A stretch of 28,686 nucleotides of DNA from a virus: the IMG/VR virus record IMGVR_UViG_3300031658_000075, positions 1 to 28,686 of that record. The stretch is one strand, 5' to 3'. Positions 15,704 through 21,374 of the stretch are shown here, in pieces; the stretch's first letter is position 1; each line of letters starts with the position of its first letter. Both the position numbers and the translations under genes were made by a program. The notes below the pieces were generated by a model. The model did no database searches, had not been told where the DNA came from, and saw only the letters and a list, made by a program, of their open reading frames with translations.

Positions 15704-16108
15704 TTACTTTTCGTACTCCTCTATAATATCTTTTATTTCTTGTATTGCTGACTTTAAACAAGGGACACAAGAAGTAGTTGATTTAGTTCCATCAGAATAT
15801 TTATTAAGCAATGCATACATTGTATTCTTTTGCTCTGAATCAATAGTATTTGTAACTTCTGAAATTAGTTTCTTCATATCTAGGTAATCATCTTTAGATA
15901 CTTGCAAATCCCCCCACTTAGATAATGGACAAGTAGAAAATGATAGCTTAGTCTTAACATCCATAAAACAACCACATGTTCTCTTGTTCCCTATTTTGTT
16001 TCCAATAATAGGAGTTCCACATGTTCGGCTCTTTTTTCTAAAATGTTGGCATGATTCACAAACAGCTATTCTTCGCTGCTCTACCTCTGGGTTACTTTTT
16101 AGCCTCAT
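15704..16108 (-). CDS. Cysteine-rich zinc-binding protein
   Basis: 134 residues. Cysteines 17, 20, 30, 45, 47 and 60 are arranged as CESC, RTCG, TCGCFM and STCPLSKW, an arrangement that recurs in small proteins beside terminase genes in Bacteroidota phages and that probably binds one or two zinc ions. A second pair, SCVPC at 114-117, precedes a C-terminal amphipathic helix (LKSAIQEIKDIIEEYEK) that could dimerise. It overlaps the sigma-like gene by 17 bases. The function is unknown. Position between sigma factor and tail genes would suit a transcription partner or an assembly helper, which is only an inference. Confidence 0.7.
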   Translation of the reverse strand: MRLKSNPEVEQRRIAVCESCQHFRKKSRTCGTPIIGNKIGNKRTCGCFMDVKTKLSFSTCPLSKWGDLQVSKDDYLDMKKLISEVTNTIDSEQKNTMYALLNKYSDGTKSTTSCVPCLKSAIQEIKDIIEEYEK

Positions 16109-16646
16109 CTATAATCTTTTTTATGTTGTTCCTTACTTTAGTGATTGTGTTCCTTAATGACCTTTGACTGATTCCAGTTTCTTCTTCTAGCTTCTTAAAT
16201 GAAAGCCCAGTTTCATAATATAACTTAAATACTTTAGTATCATAAACATCCATAGTTTTAAGGCACTCATTAATCTTGGCTTCCATTTCTAATACATTAT
16301 CTTCATGCTCATTCTGTTCATTTATAACCTTTTCAATAAAGCTGCTATTGTTTGTAGGTCTGACTTTTAGGTTGTTATACCTTACATATTTCTTGTGGAA
16401 TTGAGATTTCTTTGAGAAGTATTTTACCAGTAATATTTTGCAAACATAAGTCTTAATTTTGCCACCATCAATAATGATTAATAGCTTGTGTTGGTTCATA
16501 GTCAATAGCTGGAGAAATACCTCTTGAACTAAATCTTCTGATAAGAATGCATCTTTGGTTTTCTTAATAGCAAAGCCTAAGAAATATTTATAGTCTTTGT
16601 AAACATACTCTATTGGATGGTATTTTTTAAAAGGCATATTCTCCAT
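16092..16646 (-). CDS. ECF-like RNA polymerase sigma factor
   Basis: 184 residues. Residues about 13-80 look like sigma region 2, with SEDLVQEVFLQLLT (36-49) matching the -10-recognising and core-binding helix of ECF sigmas. Residues 125-178 look like region 4, with the helix-turn-helix TGLSFKKLEEETGISQRSLR (147-166) and a basic end. Between them lies a charged linker, as in ECF factors, and regions 1 and 3 are absent. It would direct host RNA polymerase to phage promoters. The gene lies just after large terminase (20-base overlap) and before all structural genes, the natural place for a late-gene switch. An alternative is a DNA-binding protein derived from a sigma fold. Confidence 0.7.
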   Translation of the reverse strand: MENMPFKKYHPIEYVYKDYKYFLGFAIKKTKDAFLSEDLVQEVFLQLLTMNQHKLLIIIDGGKIKTYVCKILLVKYFSKKSQFHKKYVRYNNLKVRPTNNSSFIEKVINEQNEHEDNVLEMEAKINECLKTMDVYDTKVFKLYYETGLSFKKLEEETGISQRSLRNTITKVRNNIKKIIDEAKK

Positions 16647-17943
16647 AGTTCTTTTTAATATGAAACCACATCCTCATCATTATAGCATCTGCATAATCTG
16701 GAGAATGTCCTAGCTTAGACTTCTGTATCTCTTTCCCCTCAATAGCTAACTTCTGACTATCCTTATCTACTCTATCTCTTTTTATTATTTCTAACTCTGT
16801 AATAATTGCATCTCTAAATCTAGTATCAGCAATATACATTTGTCCACTATTAATGACTTCTGCTAATTTATAAAAGCATTGTGTTTTAAGGTTCATGTAA
16901 TTTTCTCCTTTTAATGCTTTGCTTCCATTTACAAAACCAACACTTCCAGAAAGATAATCTACAACTCCACCACCGACACCATCTTGGTCTATTACCACTT
17001 TAGAGTTTGGAATGCTATGTTTAAGACACATTGTATTTATCTCTGTAACCACTTCTAATACGCTGCTCTTGTCGTATTTTACTATCCTCTCCAGCCGTAA
17101 ACCATTCCAAAGGCATATAACCGTCTTGTCATCGCCAAACCTCGCTACATCGCATGTTATGATTTTCATGCCTTCTTCTACATATTCATTAGTAAACATA
17201 TCTTGCAATGCATCGTATTCAAATAGTAAGGCGTCATCATCATTATATTCCCAGTTTCCAAATAATAGTCTTTCCTTACTTATCTTATCCAGCTTACTTA
17301 ATTGAGATATGTAATGTTTTGATATAGCCTTGTTATCTGTTACTAAGGATTTAATGAATTTTCTGTGGTCTGGTAAATCATTGGTTAAAGCTGGTTTATA
17401 GTATTTAGTATAAAGCCAACCTTTTGATGGGTTACATGTCAGAAGTGTTTTTGGTATTAGATTGTATTCATCTAGCTTATATCTAATACGAGAGTTTAAT
17501 ATGTTAATTGCTTTCTCTGTTACCTCAGCTGCTTCATCTACAAACGCATCTGTAATCTCTAAACCACCTAATGAAGTAAACTCTGGGTCTGATGGATAAA
17601 AGAATAAATCACGCAACATAATTTCTGAGCCATTATAGAACTTAATCTTATAGCCATTAGCATTGAATGTAAAGTCTCTGTTTGGAACTAACCCACAATA
17701 ATTGATAGCCACTTCCCAAAATGTGTTTAGGGTTGTAGCTTTTAGATTCTTTAGTTTTGACCTACCTATTACACTTCTTGTGTTTGGATATTGTAGTCTA
17801 CGAGTTATTTGCCAAAGGCATCCAGTAAATGTTTTAGCACCTCCAGCTCCCCCTCCAAATAACACCTCTGATGTGTGATTATCTTCTAAGTATTTAAAGC
17901 ATTCAATCTGCTTCGGAAATAGTGTTATCTTCTGTTTCTTCAA
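16627..17943 (-). CDS. terL: Terminase large subunit
   Basis: 438 residues with both expected domains. ATPase: P-loop FGGGAGGAKTFTG (29-41), Walker B ITDAFVDEAAE with Asp136 and Glu137, and coupling motif LLTCNPS (167-173). Nuclease of RNase H fold: Asp265 in ITCDVARFGDD, Asp319 in VVIDQDGVGGG, Asp416/Asp419 in HSPDYADA. It cuts concatemeric DNA and pumps it through the portal into the head. The length is normal for compact phage terminases. It overlaps terS by 41 bases and the sigma gene by 20. I cannot tell cos from pac cutting by eye, but a circularly permuted map would suit headful packaging. Confidence 0.95.
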   Translation of the reverse strand: MKKQKITLFPKQIECFKYLEDNHTSEVLFGGGAGGAKTFTGCLWQITRRLQYPNTRSVIGRSKLKNLKATTLNTFWEVAINYCGLVPNRDFTFNANGYKIKFYNGSEIMLRDLFFYPSDPEFTSLGGLEITDAFVDEAAEVTEKAINILNSRIRYKLDEYNLIPKTLLTCNPSKGWLYTKYYKPALTNDLPDHRKFIKSLVTDNKAISKHYISQLSKLDKISKERLLFGNWEYNDDDALLFEYDALQDMFTNEYVEEGMKIITCDVARFGDDKTVICLWNGLRLERIVKYDKSSVLEVVTEINTMCLKHSIPNSKVVIDQDGVGGGVVDYLSGSVGFVNGSKALKGENYMNLKTQCFYKLAEVINSGQMYIADTRFRDAIITELEIIKRDRVDKDSQKLAIEGKEIQKSKLGHSPDYADAIMMRMWFHIKKNYGEYAF

Positions 17944-18274
17944 AAGGAGTGATTTCTATTTTAATTCTATCGTCTGTTGATACATCAATTTCGCTTCTTT
18001 CAATATACCCTCTTTTCTTCCCTTTAGTCTTTAAATAGAATATTGTTGCTGATGTGTTATTGTCTCCTATCTGCTCATGCAACTTACTTTCTGCAAAGTC
18101 TAAAGCGATGTTTTGAATATCATCTACTTGAGTGGCAAACTCTAAATCATCTTTTAACCAGTTGTAATATTGTGTTCTTCCAACTCCTACTTTCTTACAA
18201 GCCGTAGTAACTATTCCAAGTGATTTCTCTAATGCTTCAAGTATTGCTTTTTTAGAGTGTTCAGTTTTGTTCAT
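17903..18274 (-). CDS. terS: Terminase small subunit
   Basis: 123 residues. Residues 8-40 form a helix-turn-helix (LGIVTTACKKVGVGRTQYYNW) like the DNA-packaging HTH domains of phage small terminases, followed by a helical stretch (DLEFATQVDDIQNIALDFAESKL, shown in part) for oligomerisation and an acidic tail (EETEDNTISEAD) that may contact TerL. The gene directly precedes terL and overlaps it by 41 bases. It recognises the packaging start on phage DNA and feeds it to the large subunit. Confidence 0.88.
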   Translation of the reverse strand: MNKTEHSKKAILEALEKSLGIVTTACKKVGVGRTQYYNWLKDDLEFATQVDDIQNIALDFAESKLHEQIGDNNTSATIFYLKTKGKKRGYIERSEIDVSTDDRIKIEITPFEETEDNTISEAD

Positions 18275-18911
18275 TATGTTCCTTTTTGAGCTTCATCATT
18301 TTCTTTGTTTCCCAAGCCTTTTTATAATCTATATTCTCAAACAACTTACTAAATCCAGTAACATGTTTTAGCTTTAATATTTCTTCTGGCTCCATACCTA
18401 AATGATTACAAATATCTTCTTCACTCCAACCATTCTCAAGCATATCAAATACCATATTAGACATTCCCTCTACTGAGTGTTGTCCTCTTGCTCTATTGTG
18501 TCTAACAGTACTTGCCATTCTTTCATTAATATCTTTTTCAATGACAACTATTGGCACTCTACCTTTATTCTTTTCCATTATATCTGGATTTCTTTGGCAA
18601 GTAAAGTATCTATGGAATCCATCAACAATAACATATTTGTCTGTTTCCTCGTCATAAATTGTTACTATGGGTTGTGTGTAGCCATCATGCTTTATACTCT
18701 TGTAAAGAAGCCCCATTTCAACCTTAGCGACTGAATTAGGGTTATAGTCATTTGGCTGGACTCTATCTATCTCAACCCATCTAACAAAATCTACTGGTTG
18801 TGGAGTTGGAGAAATGTGTTTGTGCATCCACTCTCTTAATTCATTTAAAAATTTAGCACCATCATCTGCTTTATTAAATGCTAATTTAATTTGATTTTTT
18901 AAGTCGTTCAT
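18261..18911 (-). CDS. ParB-fold protein, IbrB-like
   Basis: 216 residues. A ParB/sulfiredoxin-like domain spans about 44-145: VEIDRVQPNDYNPNSV (46-61), KHDGYTQPIVTIY (74-86) and VIVDGFHRYFTC (94-105) containing the G-x-H-R core, then TVRHNRARGQHS (135-146). A helix-turn-helix follows (GWSEEDICNHLGMEPEEIL, 161-179) and a basic C-terminus. The pair of this gene with the PAPS-reductase-like gene upstream (26-base overlap) matches IbrB/IbrA of E. coli, known as regulators of immunoglobulin-binding protein genes and common in prophages. ParB folds can bind CTP, act as nucleases or bind DNA. Its stop overlaps terS by 14 bases. Confidence 0.8.
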   Translation of the reverse strand: MNDLKNQIKLAFNKADDGAKFLNELREWMHKHISPTPQPVDFVRWVEIDRVQPNDYNPNSVAKVEMGLLYKSIKHDGYTQPIVTIYDEETDKYVIVDGFHRYFTCQRNPDIMEKNKGRVPIVVIEKDINERMASTVRHNRARGQHSVEGMSNMVFDMLENGWSEEDICNHLGMEPEEILKLKHVTGFSKLFENIDYKKAWETKKMMKLKKEHNEQN

Positions 18912-20118
18912 TTTGAAAGTATTTGATTATTTCTGTTTTCTGTTCAGTAGTAAGATACTTAGTACTTTTAAGCATTGGAGTTAACCATACATATTTCTCC
19001 TTGTTTTCTCCTTTAGGATTCTTAATGTATCTTCTGTATGTATCACATGCTCCAGACATCATATAGTTTTGAAGTTTAGTGAAATCGAAATCGCTACTTA
19101 GGATTGTATTTATAATTACTTTCCAATAATCTGTTGCTGACTTCTCTGCATGAAATATGCTTGACTTTTCTATTTTAACAAATAGCATATCTCGATACTT
19201 ATCTTCTGCTATTAAATACTTAGCTAAATGAAGAGCATATTCTTTCCAATCTGCAAACATATAAGGTAATGCTTTAGGACATCTAAATGCATTGTTTTGA
19301 ATATGCTTAATTGTATTTGCTCCCTCTATTTTCTTAGCAACTTTATTCCATGTTGCTGGTTCTATTTCTTGAACAATTAAAAGGCTTTGAATTGCCGTTT
19401 CGTGATGAAGATTTGACACCCTCATTTCATTAAGTTTAACTCCATGTCGATACATTTCATCGTAAACCTTATTGTACTTATACTTATTAGACTGAATTAG
19501 TTTCCAGACATCTGTATAACTCCAATCATATAATGGATAGAATGTATGTTGATTCCTTTTCTTACTTAATGTCTTACCCCAAGTAATCCACTTGTATGTT
19601 ATACCTCCAGTTAATGCGACAAATCTCTTTGGTGCTTCTTCTGTTCTTACTCCAGCGACATAACAAGTGTTTTCTGGGAAGTCTACTTGAGCAATCTTTT
19701 GGAATAAATCATGAAATCTATCTGTTCCATATTTGTTTTCTGTAATAGCTATTGAGTCTTGAGGATGTATCCAATCTTCCTTTTCATTTTCAGCCCAACA
19801 ATAATGGTATCTACTTGTGCTTGATGCATTGTTTGTAATTACCATTGGGATTTGATACCAATGTGGCTTAACCTCTTTTCGATACATTACTTCTTTCATG
19901 TAATCAATTGTGCTTTGCCACTCACATTCTTGGTCTACAAAAACAACTGGAACTGGTAATCTGTTCTTTTCTTTTGCTACTTGAATAGCTAATTCTAAAA
20001 CACAAGTGCTATCCTTTCCTCCAGAAAATGAAACAACAACCTCATCAAATTCATCGTACAAATACCTAAACCTTTCAAGTCCAGCATCTAACACATTTTG
20101 ATTCCTATAAATTTTCAT
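18886..20118 (-). CDS. PAPS-reductase-like / IbrA-like ATP pyrophosphatase
   Basis: 410 residues. The N-terminus carries the PP-loop SFSGGKDST (30-38), the AMP/PPi-forming nucleotide site of PAPS reductases, DndC and tRNA thiolases. Further family marks are VFVDQECEWQST (near 62-73), AGVRTEEAPKR (about 158-168), FYPLYDWSYTDVW and MRVSNLHHETAIQ. The C-terminal half, with FRCPKALPYMFADW, fits the DUF3440/IbrA type rather than true assimilatory reductase, which would be about 240 residues and carry an ECGLH end. The substrate is unknown; adenylation of a carboxylate, base or sulfur carrier is possible. It overlaps the GNAT gene by 14 bases and the ParB-fold gene by 26. Confidence 0.85.
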   Translation of the reverse strand: MKIYRNQNVLDAGLERFRYLYDEFDEVVVSFSGGKDSTCVLELAIQVAKEKNRLPVPVVFVDQECEWQSTIDYMKEVMYRKEVKPHWYQIPMVITNNASSTSRYHYCWAENEKEDWIHPQDSIAITENKYGTDRFHDLFQKIAQVDFPENTCYVAGVRTEEAPKRFVALTGGITYKWITWGKTLSKKRNQHTFYPLYDWSYTDVWKLIQSNKYKYNKVYDEMYRHGVKLNEMRVSNLHHETAIQSLLIVQEIEPATWNKVAKKIEGANTIKHIQNNAFRCPKALPYMFADWKEYALHLAKYLIAEDKYRDMLFVKIEKSSIFHAEKSATDYWKVIINTILSSDFDFTKLQNYMMSGACDTYRRYIKNPKGENKEKYVWLTPMLKSTKYLTTEQKTEIIKYFQNERLKKSN

Positions 20119-20488
20119 AGATTACTTTTGTTATTCCGTTCTTGTAAGTTTCTTTAATTTTAGCTCCATGTTTTAAATGGATGCTTAAAGACATTTCAGT
20201 ACAATTTGCTTCTATAATTTTATAACCAAATCCTTTAAGCAATGTTAGTCTTGTTAAAATTAATTCAGATGCTAATCCTTGTTTTCTGTGATGATAATCT
20301 ATGTAGACATTTTTCATTATTGCTTTACTTTTAAGCAATCTCATTCCACTAAATCCAACCACCTCTGCATCGTCATTTAATATGCATATGAACTTAGTAT
20401 CTAACTTAGGGAATAAAATACCTTCCTTTTTAGCATCTGCCATCAAGTGTTTAATAGAATCTCTTGGTAATGTCTTAATGCTATACAT
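20105..20488 (-). CDS. GNAT-fold acyltransferase
   Basis: 127 residues with the compact GNAT layout. Strand-rich residues 32-50 (FICILNDDAEVVGFSG) lead into motif A, KNVYIDYHHRKQGLASELI (59-77), the acyl-CoA pyrophosphate loop with the Q-x-x-G-x-A type pattern RKQGLA. Then come YKIIEANCTEMSLSIHLKHG (89-108) and a last strand. Such enzymes transfer acetyl or related groups from CoA to proteins, small molecules or, for the Mom protein of phage Mu, to adenine in DNA. The target cannot be read here. Its location between an unknown phage gene (1-base overlap) and the PP-loop enzyme (14-base overlap) suggests a shared pathway. Confidence 0.8.
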   Translation of the reverse strand: MYSIKTLPRDSIKHLMADAKKEGILFPKLDTKFICILNDDAEVVGFSGMRLLKSKAIMKNVYIDYHHRKQGLASELILTRLTLLKGFGYKIIEANCTEMSLSIHLKHGAKIKETYKNGITKVIYENL

Positions 20489-20799
20489 TACTTCTTTCCT
20501 TTAGCATAATTAATCCAATCTGACTTAGGTTTAATTATGGCTCTATTAATAATTCCAGAACCATCGTTTATCTTCATTGCCCAATACTCATTATCATCTA
20601 TTGTGTAATAGTAATAGAACCTTCTAAAGAATAATCTCTTATCTCCATGCTCTGTAATAAATTCAGCTACTTCCTTATACAAATCTTTATCTCCCCAATT
20701 CTTTTCTAGTGTATAAGAATGAGGGATTTTAGCCATTGTCTTAGCAAACTTCCATGTCATGGATAATAGTATTTTTCTTACTTTCTCGTGGTTCATCAT
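20488..20799 (-). CDS. Conserved phage protein of unknown function (AKTMxxIPHxYT type)
   Basis: 103 residues, basic. The N-terminal half holds FAKTMAKIPHSYTLEKNW (18-35), a motif I recall from many phage and prophage proteins, sometimes beside or fused to DNA methyltransferases or ParB-like domains. Aromatic strands follow (FFRRFYYYYTI, 57-67) and EYWAMKINDGSGIINRAII (71-89). The conserved His, Tyr, Trp and Asn-Arg hint at a catalytic or nucleic-acid role, which is an inference. Its start overlaps the ParB-fold gene by 4 bases and its stop overlaps the GNAT start by one, so all are co-translated. Confidence 0.65.
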   Translation of the reverse strand: MMNHEKVRKILLSMTWKFAKTMAKIPHSYTLEKNWGDKDLYKEVAEFITEHGDKRLFFRRFYYYYTIDDNEYWAMKINDGSGIINRAIIKPKSDWINYAKGKK

Positions 20800-21374
20800 A
20801 CTTGTACATCAAATTCTGCGTTACACTCTGGACACATTACACTTACATTCTTCATTTCCTTAATCATTTCATCTGCTAATTTCTTAGCTTCTCTTTCTAT
20901 TTCTTCTCTTGTTACATCAGAGTAATCAGTTGTTGGAGATAGAGTTGGCTCATAATCTATTTCTTCTGCTTGCCATACATCAACACCCCAATAATCAAGT
21001 GCTTTAGTATCGTAAGTATTTGCTAATACATCCCAATCCCATTCTCCAAAACCAGAATTATCTTTAATAACAAATTCCTCACATCTTTCTTTATAGCTTT
21101 TGCGTTTTTCTATTGGGACTTTGTTTTCTCCTTTCTCCCACTCTTTTAATCCAAATACAATTGTTGGAATAACTTCCCAGCCTAAATCTGTACAAGCCTT
21201 TAATCTCATGTTACCTCCAATAACTACATTCTTTTCATCTAACACAATAGGTCTTAATTCCATCATTTGTGGAAAGTCTATTATTGATTCTTTTAGCTTC
21301 TCAAACTTTTCATCCCTTATAACTCTGGGATTGTTTTTGTTTGGTTTAAGGCTTTTGATTTTTAACTCTTTCAT
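20796..21374 (-). CDS. ParB-fold protein with C-terminal zinc-like motif
   Basis: 192 residues. The N-terminal 75 residues are a ParB-like domain: LKPNKNNPRVIRDEKFEKL (9-27), MELRPIVLDEKNVVIGGNMR (38-57; GGNMR is the core loop) and DLGWEVIPTIVF. The central part, EEFVIKDNSGFGEWDWDVLA (99-118) with YWGVDVW, is the segment that often links a ParB domain to a DNA methyltransferase in phages; here no methyltransferase follows. A helical part and CPECNAEF (181-188) close the protein. It differs from the second ParB-fold protein at 18261-18911, so this operon carries two types. It overlaps the 55-residue gene upstream by 29 bases. Confidence 0.75.
   Translation of the reverse strand: MKELKIKSLKPNKNNPRVIRDEKFEKLKESIIDFPQMMELRPIVLDEKNVVIGGNMRLKACTDLGWEVIPTIVFGLKEWEKGENKVPIEKRKSYKERCEEFVIKDNSGFGEWDWDVLANTYDTKALDYWGVDVWQAEEIDYEPTLSPTTDYSDVTREEIEREAKKLADEMIKEMKNVSVMCPECNAEFDVQV

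Follow-up and report, generated by a model that had tools for sequence, protein, structure and literature searches.

The closest described relatives of the locus considered here fall into several kinds. On plasmids and in Escherichia coli the genes for IbrA, a PP-loop enzyme, and IbrB, a ParB-fold protein, adjoin and overlap as a pair that has been named a regulator. In Dnd phosphorothioation a PP-loop enzyme, DndC, is likewise paired with a ParB-like protein, DndB. Phage DNA is hypermodified by the CmoA-CmoX-CmoY pathway to 5-carboxymethylcytosine, with its AMP-forming ligase and ParBc-domain neighbour (PMC12783734), while other phage loci carry TET/JBP dioxygenases (PF12851) and TAGT glycosyltransferases (PF20691), and phage Mu has the GNAT-fold enzyme Mom. 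The 28,686-base linear virus record IMGVR_UViG_3300031658_000075, taken at its full length and referred to below as the window, has an IbrA/IbrB pair as part of a five-gene cassette: a ParB-fold protein (ParB1), a small protein with an AKTM motif, a small GNAT acyltransferase, IbrA and IbrB, leading into the terminase genes terS and terL. It is probable that this cassette is one allele of an exchangeable slot for DNA-base modification, working by a mechanism of the type proposed below. That it modifies phage DNA we hold to be highly likely, because its place is taken in other phages by known DNA-modification genes.

The natural exchange is seen in relatives fetched by their TerL (73-88% identical to that of the window). 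As far as their contigs reach these share HNH, VRR nuclease, ParB1, terS and terL with the window; one of them, L184, is a near-identical twin and has the cassette, and the other close-TerL relatives lack it. Between ParB1 and terS there are instead TAGT glycosyltransferase genes (PF20691) in L185 (1e-41), L187 (4e-34) and L188 (1e-16), which match PHROG 842, beta-glucosyl-HMC-alpha-glucosyltransferase, and in L196 a TET/JBP-like dioxygenase (2.8e-8, slightly below cut-off) accompanied by a P-loop protein. The L186 slot has an ABC-GNAT protein and a GNAT 51% identical to that of the window, ParB1 itself is fused to an N6_N4 DNA methylase in L191, and in L198 the slot is empty. By blastn against L187, L185, L186 and L188 one breakpoint coincides with the first base of terS (18274-18279) and the other falls within the tail of ParB1 (20967-21018), the CPxC tail being part of the swapped segment, with the adjoining flanks 69-79% identical at the nucleotide level. 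The TET/JBP-TAGT loci have the identical ParB1-[slot]-terS-terL position, with TerL 82-88% identical, yet no match to PF12851 or PF20691 was found among the five slot genes of the window, whose chemistry would be initiated by a PP-loop ATP enzyme and not by a dioxygenase. Because the cassette alternates with known DNA-modification genes, the ParB1-terS interval appears to be an exchangeable DNA-modification slot of which the cassette is one allele, and we regard this natural swap as the strongest evidence for such a role. A module encoding a sigma-like protein and a 134-amino-acid Cys-rich protein (window 15704-16646) has itself moved around the slot: the window, L186 and L187 have it on the downstream side of terL, other close relatives (L185, L188, L191 and L196-L198) on the upstream side of ParB1.

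The same alternation recurs at greater distance. With three further TerL clades added, the 5.5 kb before terL was scanned in 90 non-redundant loci having at least 3.5 kb upstream: IbrA was present in 32, TET/JBP or TAGT in 40, neither in 18 and both in none (Fisher 8e-12 for the exclusion, relatedness ignored). By parsimony on TerL trees the switches of state between IbrA and TET/TAGT number at least 7 and at least 2, together at least 9. Pfam-backed occupants of the slot elsewhere comprise Tet_JBP (PF12851; 1.5e-19 and 5e-10), TAGT (1e-13), an N6_N4 methylase (2e-15), a C5 cytosine methylase (4e-40) and an amino acid:DNA transferase (3e-23); some TAGT labels are soft, the L381 gene having been so called by an iterative profile without a Pfam match. 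Within 5.5 kb downstream, in 49 control loci, there were no modification-type genes of the searched families. The suggestion of a sequence-only reading of the window, that the five genes build a modified base or nucleoside, gains strong contextual support from the alternation with TET/JBP, TAGT and DNA methylases, though its chemistry is still something that we infer. In one TET-type phage (L305:3725-5978) the slot carries an amino acid:DNA transferase (PF18724) and a glutamine amidotransferase.

The tail of ParB1 goes with the contents of the slot. A CxxC tail is present in 24 of 31 IbrA-positive loci and in none of the 38 TET/TAGT-positive loci that have ParB1 (1e-12, relatedness ignored). 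The seven IbrA-positive loci without it are also without AKTM, and those viewed in sequence have a cupin-like protein before IbrA. Cassettes of IbrA and IbrB upstream of TerL that lack both AKTM and the CxxC tail (L214, L232, L252, L373 and L420) are, on their gene content, a second subtype; the cupin-like protein, of ~270 amino acids, precedes IbrA in L214, L232 and L373, and L214 has in addition a second PP-loop protein and a class II glutamine amidotransferase-like protein, which hints at ammonia chemistry.

Does the cassette hold together as a unit? The five genes are present where they had been described from the sequence; they lie on the minus strand and overlap one another and terS (by 4, 1, 14, 26 and 14 bases along ParB1-AKTM-GNAT-IbrA-IbrB-terS), and the family assignments made then agree with matches to Pfam, PHROG and curated models (Table 1). 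Searches with IbrA gave 55 viral loci. Searches with AKTM gave 74, among them 70 new ones, and all but one of these 70 have IbrA (69). The order in relatives is ParB1-AKTM-variable slot-IbrA-IbrB-terS-terL, or else has ParB1 placed after IbrB. Among 39 loci with sufficient flanking sequence, made non-redundant at 90% IbrA identity, IbrB is present in all, AKTM in 38 and ParB1 in 37, and none is without a transferase of some kind, be it a GNAT, a glycosyltransferase, a methyltransferase or AdoMet decarboxylase. It is the identity of the latter that varies: 20 loci have a small DPPW-type methyltransferase, 16 a glycosyltransferase-like gene, 15 a class I SAM methyltransferase, 13 a GNAT and 3 SpeD. 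As a scan with Pfam alone failed to recognise the small methyltransferases and the majority of glycosyltransferases, methyltransferases were assigned by eye (DPPW, motif-I) and some glycosyltransferases by PHROG 854, and these labels are softer than the others. Loci retrieved by IbrA alone tell the same story (AKTM in 17, ParB1 in 18 and a transferase in 18 of 18). Since the order recurs in carriers whose TerL proteins still fall into 12 clusters at 30% identity (28 at 70%), and since AKTM-found loci so regularly have IbrA, it reflects more than chance; overlap of IbrA into IbrB is found in 169 of 176 adjacent pairs. Conserved co-occurrence in other phages, the absence of which the sequence-only reading had named as a refutation, was looked for and is present. 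SpeD (AdoMet decarboxylase), as a slot enzyme or an AKTM fusion, is seen at L045:5606-5980 (PF02675 1e-12) and in L140-L142, L170, L171 and L353, and suggests an aminopropyl donor for modification. L359 has, upstream of TerL, a ParB1 with CxxC tail and AKTM with no IbrA detected; it is possibly a degraded or divergent cassette.

Table 1. Features of the window at and around the slot
Feature	Coordinates	Strand	Description
ParB1	20796..21374	-	192 amino acids, ParB-fold N-domain adaptor, C-terminal CPxC (CPEC) tail
AKTM protein	20488..20799	-	103 amino acids; unnamed ~95-amino-acid domain, AKTMxxxPHxYT...YWxM...NRA
GNAT acyltransferase, small	20105..20488	-	127 amino acids, motif A RKQGLA
IbrA-like PP-loop enzyme	18886..20118	-	410 amino acids, SGGKDS, DUF3440
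IbrB-like ParB/Srx-fold protein	18261..18911	-	216 amino acids
terS, downstream slot boundary	17903..18274	-	matches terminase small-subunit PHROGs
terL	16627..17943	-	PF04466 4.8e-10
Swapped segment	18275..20968		ParB1 tail up to the base preceding terS; blastn vs L187/L185/L186/L188

IbrA matches PF01507 (7e-18, 65.7 bits) and DUF3440 (PF11922; 1e-7, 32.1 bits), both above cut-off, and PHROG 2302 (1e-78). The first of these matches, with the routine annotation of such phage genes as 'phosphoadenosine phosphosulfate (PAPS) reductase', would make it an auxiliary metabolic gene, a phage cysH raising host sulfate assimilation. This we find scarcely credible. The catalytic ECG(I/L)H motif of CysH is absent from all 26 aligned members, which have no invariant cysteine, the CysH models, whose cut-offs are 154-254 bits, give it no more than 22-31 (TIGR02057 29.8 against 254; PRK02090 31 against 154), and the linkage to ParB-fold and transferase genes beside the terminase is fixed. 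On its catalytic residues, and as far as sequence allows the judgement, IbrA is not a PAPS reductase, and a sulfur-metabolic role was rejected. What is kept is the SGGKDS loop of the PP-loop ATP pyrophosphatase superfamily, invariant in 26 of 26, together with a conserved GxRxEExPxR-type motif. The best matches of an IbrA profile to PDB sequences are FAD synthase (5.6e-6) and CysD (8.8e-5), both of them AMP-transferring enzymes, and adenylation is the favoured reaction for IbrA, if one that we infer.

A different use of sulfur, with IbrA acting as DndC does and placing sulfur in the DNA backbone, has in its favour that DndC is the best PADLOC match of IbrA (2.6e-10) and that DndB is a ParB-like partner (PMC10853773). 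Against this, DndC requires cysteines that carry its cluster and sulfur (PMC10853773) and the IbrA family has none that is conserved, TIGR03183 scores 24.8 bits against a cut-off of 290, no DndD/E was recognised beside the cassette, and base- or sugar-decorating acyl-, glycosyl- and methyltransferases would be superfluous. Phosphorothioation is thus very improbable, and a DndC-like reaction was rejected for want of the cysteines. CmoY, for its part, is an ATP-dependent amide ligase belonging to another gene set than the one considered here (PMC12783734).

IbrB is the best conserved part of the cassette (49-72% identity to the window protein, with DGFHR and RHNRARGxH invariant). It matches PHROG 2159 (4e-73) and, at 9.5e-6 and 26.0 bits, PF02195 slightly below the 26.3 cut-off; its matches among PDB sequences are ParB/Noc and, weakly, the kinase SbnI. 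Neither ParB protein of the window resembles a partition ParB by TIGR00180 (19 and 25.3 bits against a 58.45 cut-off). The Klebsiella plasmid IbrB keeps VDGFHR and RHNRARGKH, and the IbrA beside it is 33% identical to that of the window (2e-41). This kinship is what could lead one to see the phage proteins as transcription co-activators switching on late or prophage genes, the E. coli IbrAB being reported (Sandt 2002, as cited in later papers) to activate prophage eib genes. The plasmid pair is without AKTM, ParB1 and transferases; that of the window is inside a modification slot beside terS. A regulator, however, is unlikely to swap with TET, TAGT and DNA-methylase genes or to have acyl-, methyl- and glycosyltransferases as its companions, and the ATP-binding loop of IbrA is intact and invariant. 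Regulation as the function of the phage pair is, all told, improbable.

ParB1 matches PF02195 above the same cut-off (1.5e-6, 28.6 bits), and its nearest PHROG is 498, a ParB fused to a DNA methyltransferase. ParB folds bind CTP, ATP or GTP and are fused to DNA methyltransferases in phages (PMC12704722). The AKTM protein has no match in Pfam, PHROG, NCBIfam or PADLOC families or among PDB sequences. Its AF2 model is good by predicted local distance difference test (pLDDT 89) but resembles no solved fold (best E 0.12), and matches one unnamed viral protein (4.6e-6). Several relatives have AKTM as a fusion with a SpeD domain or with a class I SAM methyltransferase. The weak match of an AKTM-fused SAM-methyltransferase to a tRNA methyltransferase PHROG, and the fact that GNATs often act on proteins, could be taken to favour a host RNA, protein or soluble nucleotide as the target, modified as counter-defence; the exchange with DNA-base-modification enzyme families speaks for DNA instead and renders such targets distinctly unlikely, and for host-protein modification, which had also been suggested from the window, no support was found.

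The GNAT is assigned by PF00583 (5e-6, 27.2 bits against 20.7), with the RxxGxG/A motif as RKQGLA. It had been likened to Mu Mom, and with a GNAT in the window, and an ABC-GNAT and a 51% identical GNAT in the L186 slot, it might be that this enzyme alone acts on adenine as Mom does, with IbrA and IbrB as accessories. Homology to Mom fails to appear, however (BLAST E 0.064 over 46 residues, no profile match, PF25680 not among the Pfam matches), and was rejected; the L186 ABC-GNAT reaches no better than E 0.075 against the Pfam Mom family, and GNAT is an optional member, in 13 of 39 cassettes against 38 for AKTM and 39 for IbrB. An explanation of Mom type is accordingly unlikely.

Cultured phages carry related genes. 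In Microbacterium phage Rasputia, IbrA is accompanied by a GNAT, three glycosyltransferases and a methyltransferase with an N-terminal AKTM domain (profile, 5.4e-7). Its relative Leaf has IbrB as gene 1, and Hendrix, also a Microbacterium phage, is another carrier of the cassette. The gene order in Mycobacterium phage Phlyer is ParB, then two small genes, then IbrA, IbrB and terL, and Arthrobacter LiSara and Faecalibacterium Taranis have ParB-IbrA-IbrB ahead of the terminase. A tblastn search of cultured phages with the window AKTM and GNAT proteins and the L056 AKTM domain gave no match. The view that the cassette is wired to packaging genes agrees with the gene order in the window and its relatives, though the association is not strict, the IbrA/IbrB pair of S. 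thermophilus phage D4276 being distant from the terminase. IbrB relatives are found in 642 plasmid records of Klebsiella, Escherichia and Shigella; in the one plasmid viewed (L182:3766-5615) IbrA-IbrB is without cassette partners and is annotated as PAPS reductase and ParB.

Several observations weigh against the interpretation offered here. The Fisher values take no account of relatedness and the TerL trees are from FastTree only; the downstream control regions contain structural genes. Comparison of the IbrA fold (AF2 model, pLDDT 81) ranks FAD synthase about equal to adenosine phosphosulfate (APS)/PAPS reductases, and because that ranking is even, adenylyl transfer by IbrA is argued from its residues and weak sequence matches. 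Cellular AKTM mostly stands without IbrA (39 of 43 bacterial loci, L059-L101, from many phyla, often with fusion to a class I SAM methyltransferase); that no IbrA adjoins it on Rhizobium and Butyrivibrio plasmids is uninformative. Finally, IbrA and IbrB also occur alone on plasmids, where a role in DNA modification is putative.

For the cassette as an allele of a DNA-modification slot, a mechanism can be envisaged in which the two NTP-binding ParB folds, IbrB and ParB1 (the latter via its CPxC tail), would position the enzymes on phage DNA. The PP-loop of IbrA would adenylate a group either on the base or on the moiety due for attachment, with no cysteine or sulfur step, and the adenylated group would then let a nucleophile be joined. 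AKTM may serve the transferase as its dedicated partner or as a docking module, and the small GNAT would cap the installed handle with an acyl group, a position that in other phages may be taken by a glycosyl, methyl or SpeD-derived group. Shielding from host nucleases would be the likely benefit. That adenylation by IbrA is followed by capping is a proposition to which we give an even chance.

In the literature searched no IbrA-based DNA-modification system is described, though a prior mention in the survey of Iyer et al. 2013, the main earlier one on operons of this kind, is possible. The odds seem balanced that a cysteine-free PP-loop IbrA and a ParB/Srx-fold IbrB define a widespread, previously undescribed class of DNA hypermodification that installs an ATP-activated handle on a base, with AKTM-selected acyl, glycosyl, methyl or aminopropyl caps. 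If so, the plasmid IbrAB pairs would be epigenetic writers and not transcription factors. Phage genes of the IbrA family are as a matter of routine labelled PAPS reductase, at times also listed among sulfur-cycling auxiliary metabolic genes, and since the residues and neighbourhood point to another role for this large family, some claims about viral sulfur metabolism would need revision. The long-enigmatic IbrA/IbrB pair would be tied to DNA modification and the unnamed AKTM domain given a context. With the cultured phages that carry the cassette this reading is directly testable, and the hot slot beside the terminase, with its exchange of modification systems, is a place to look for further chemistries.

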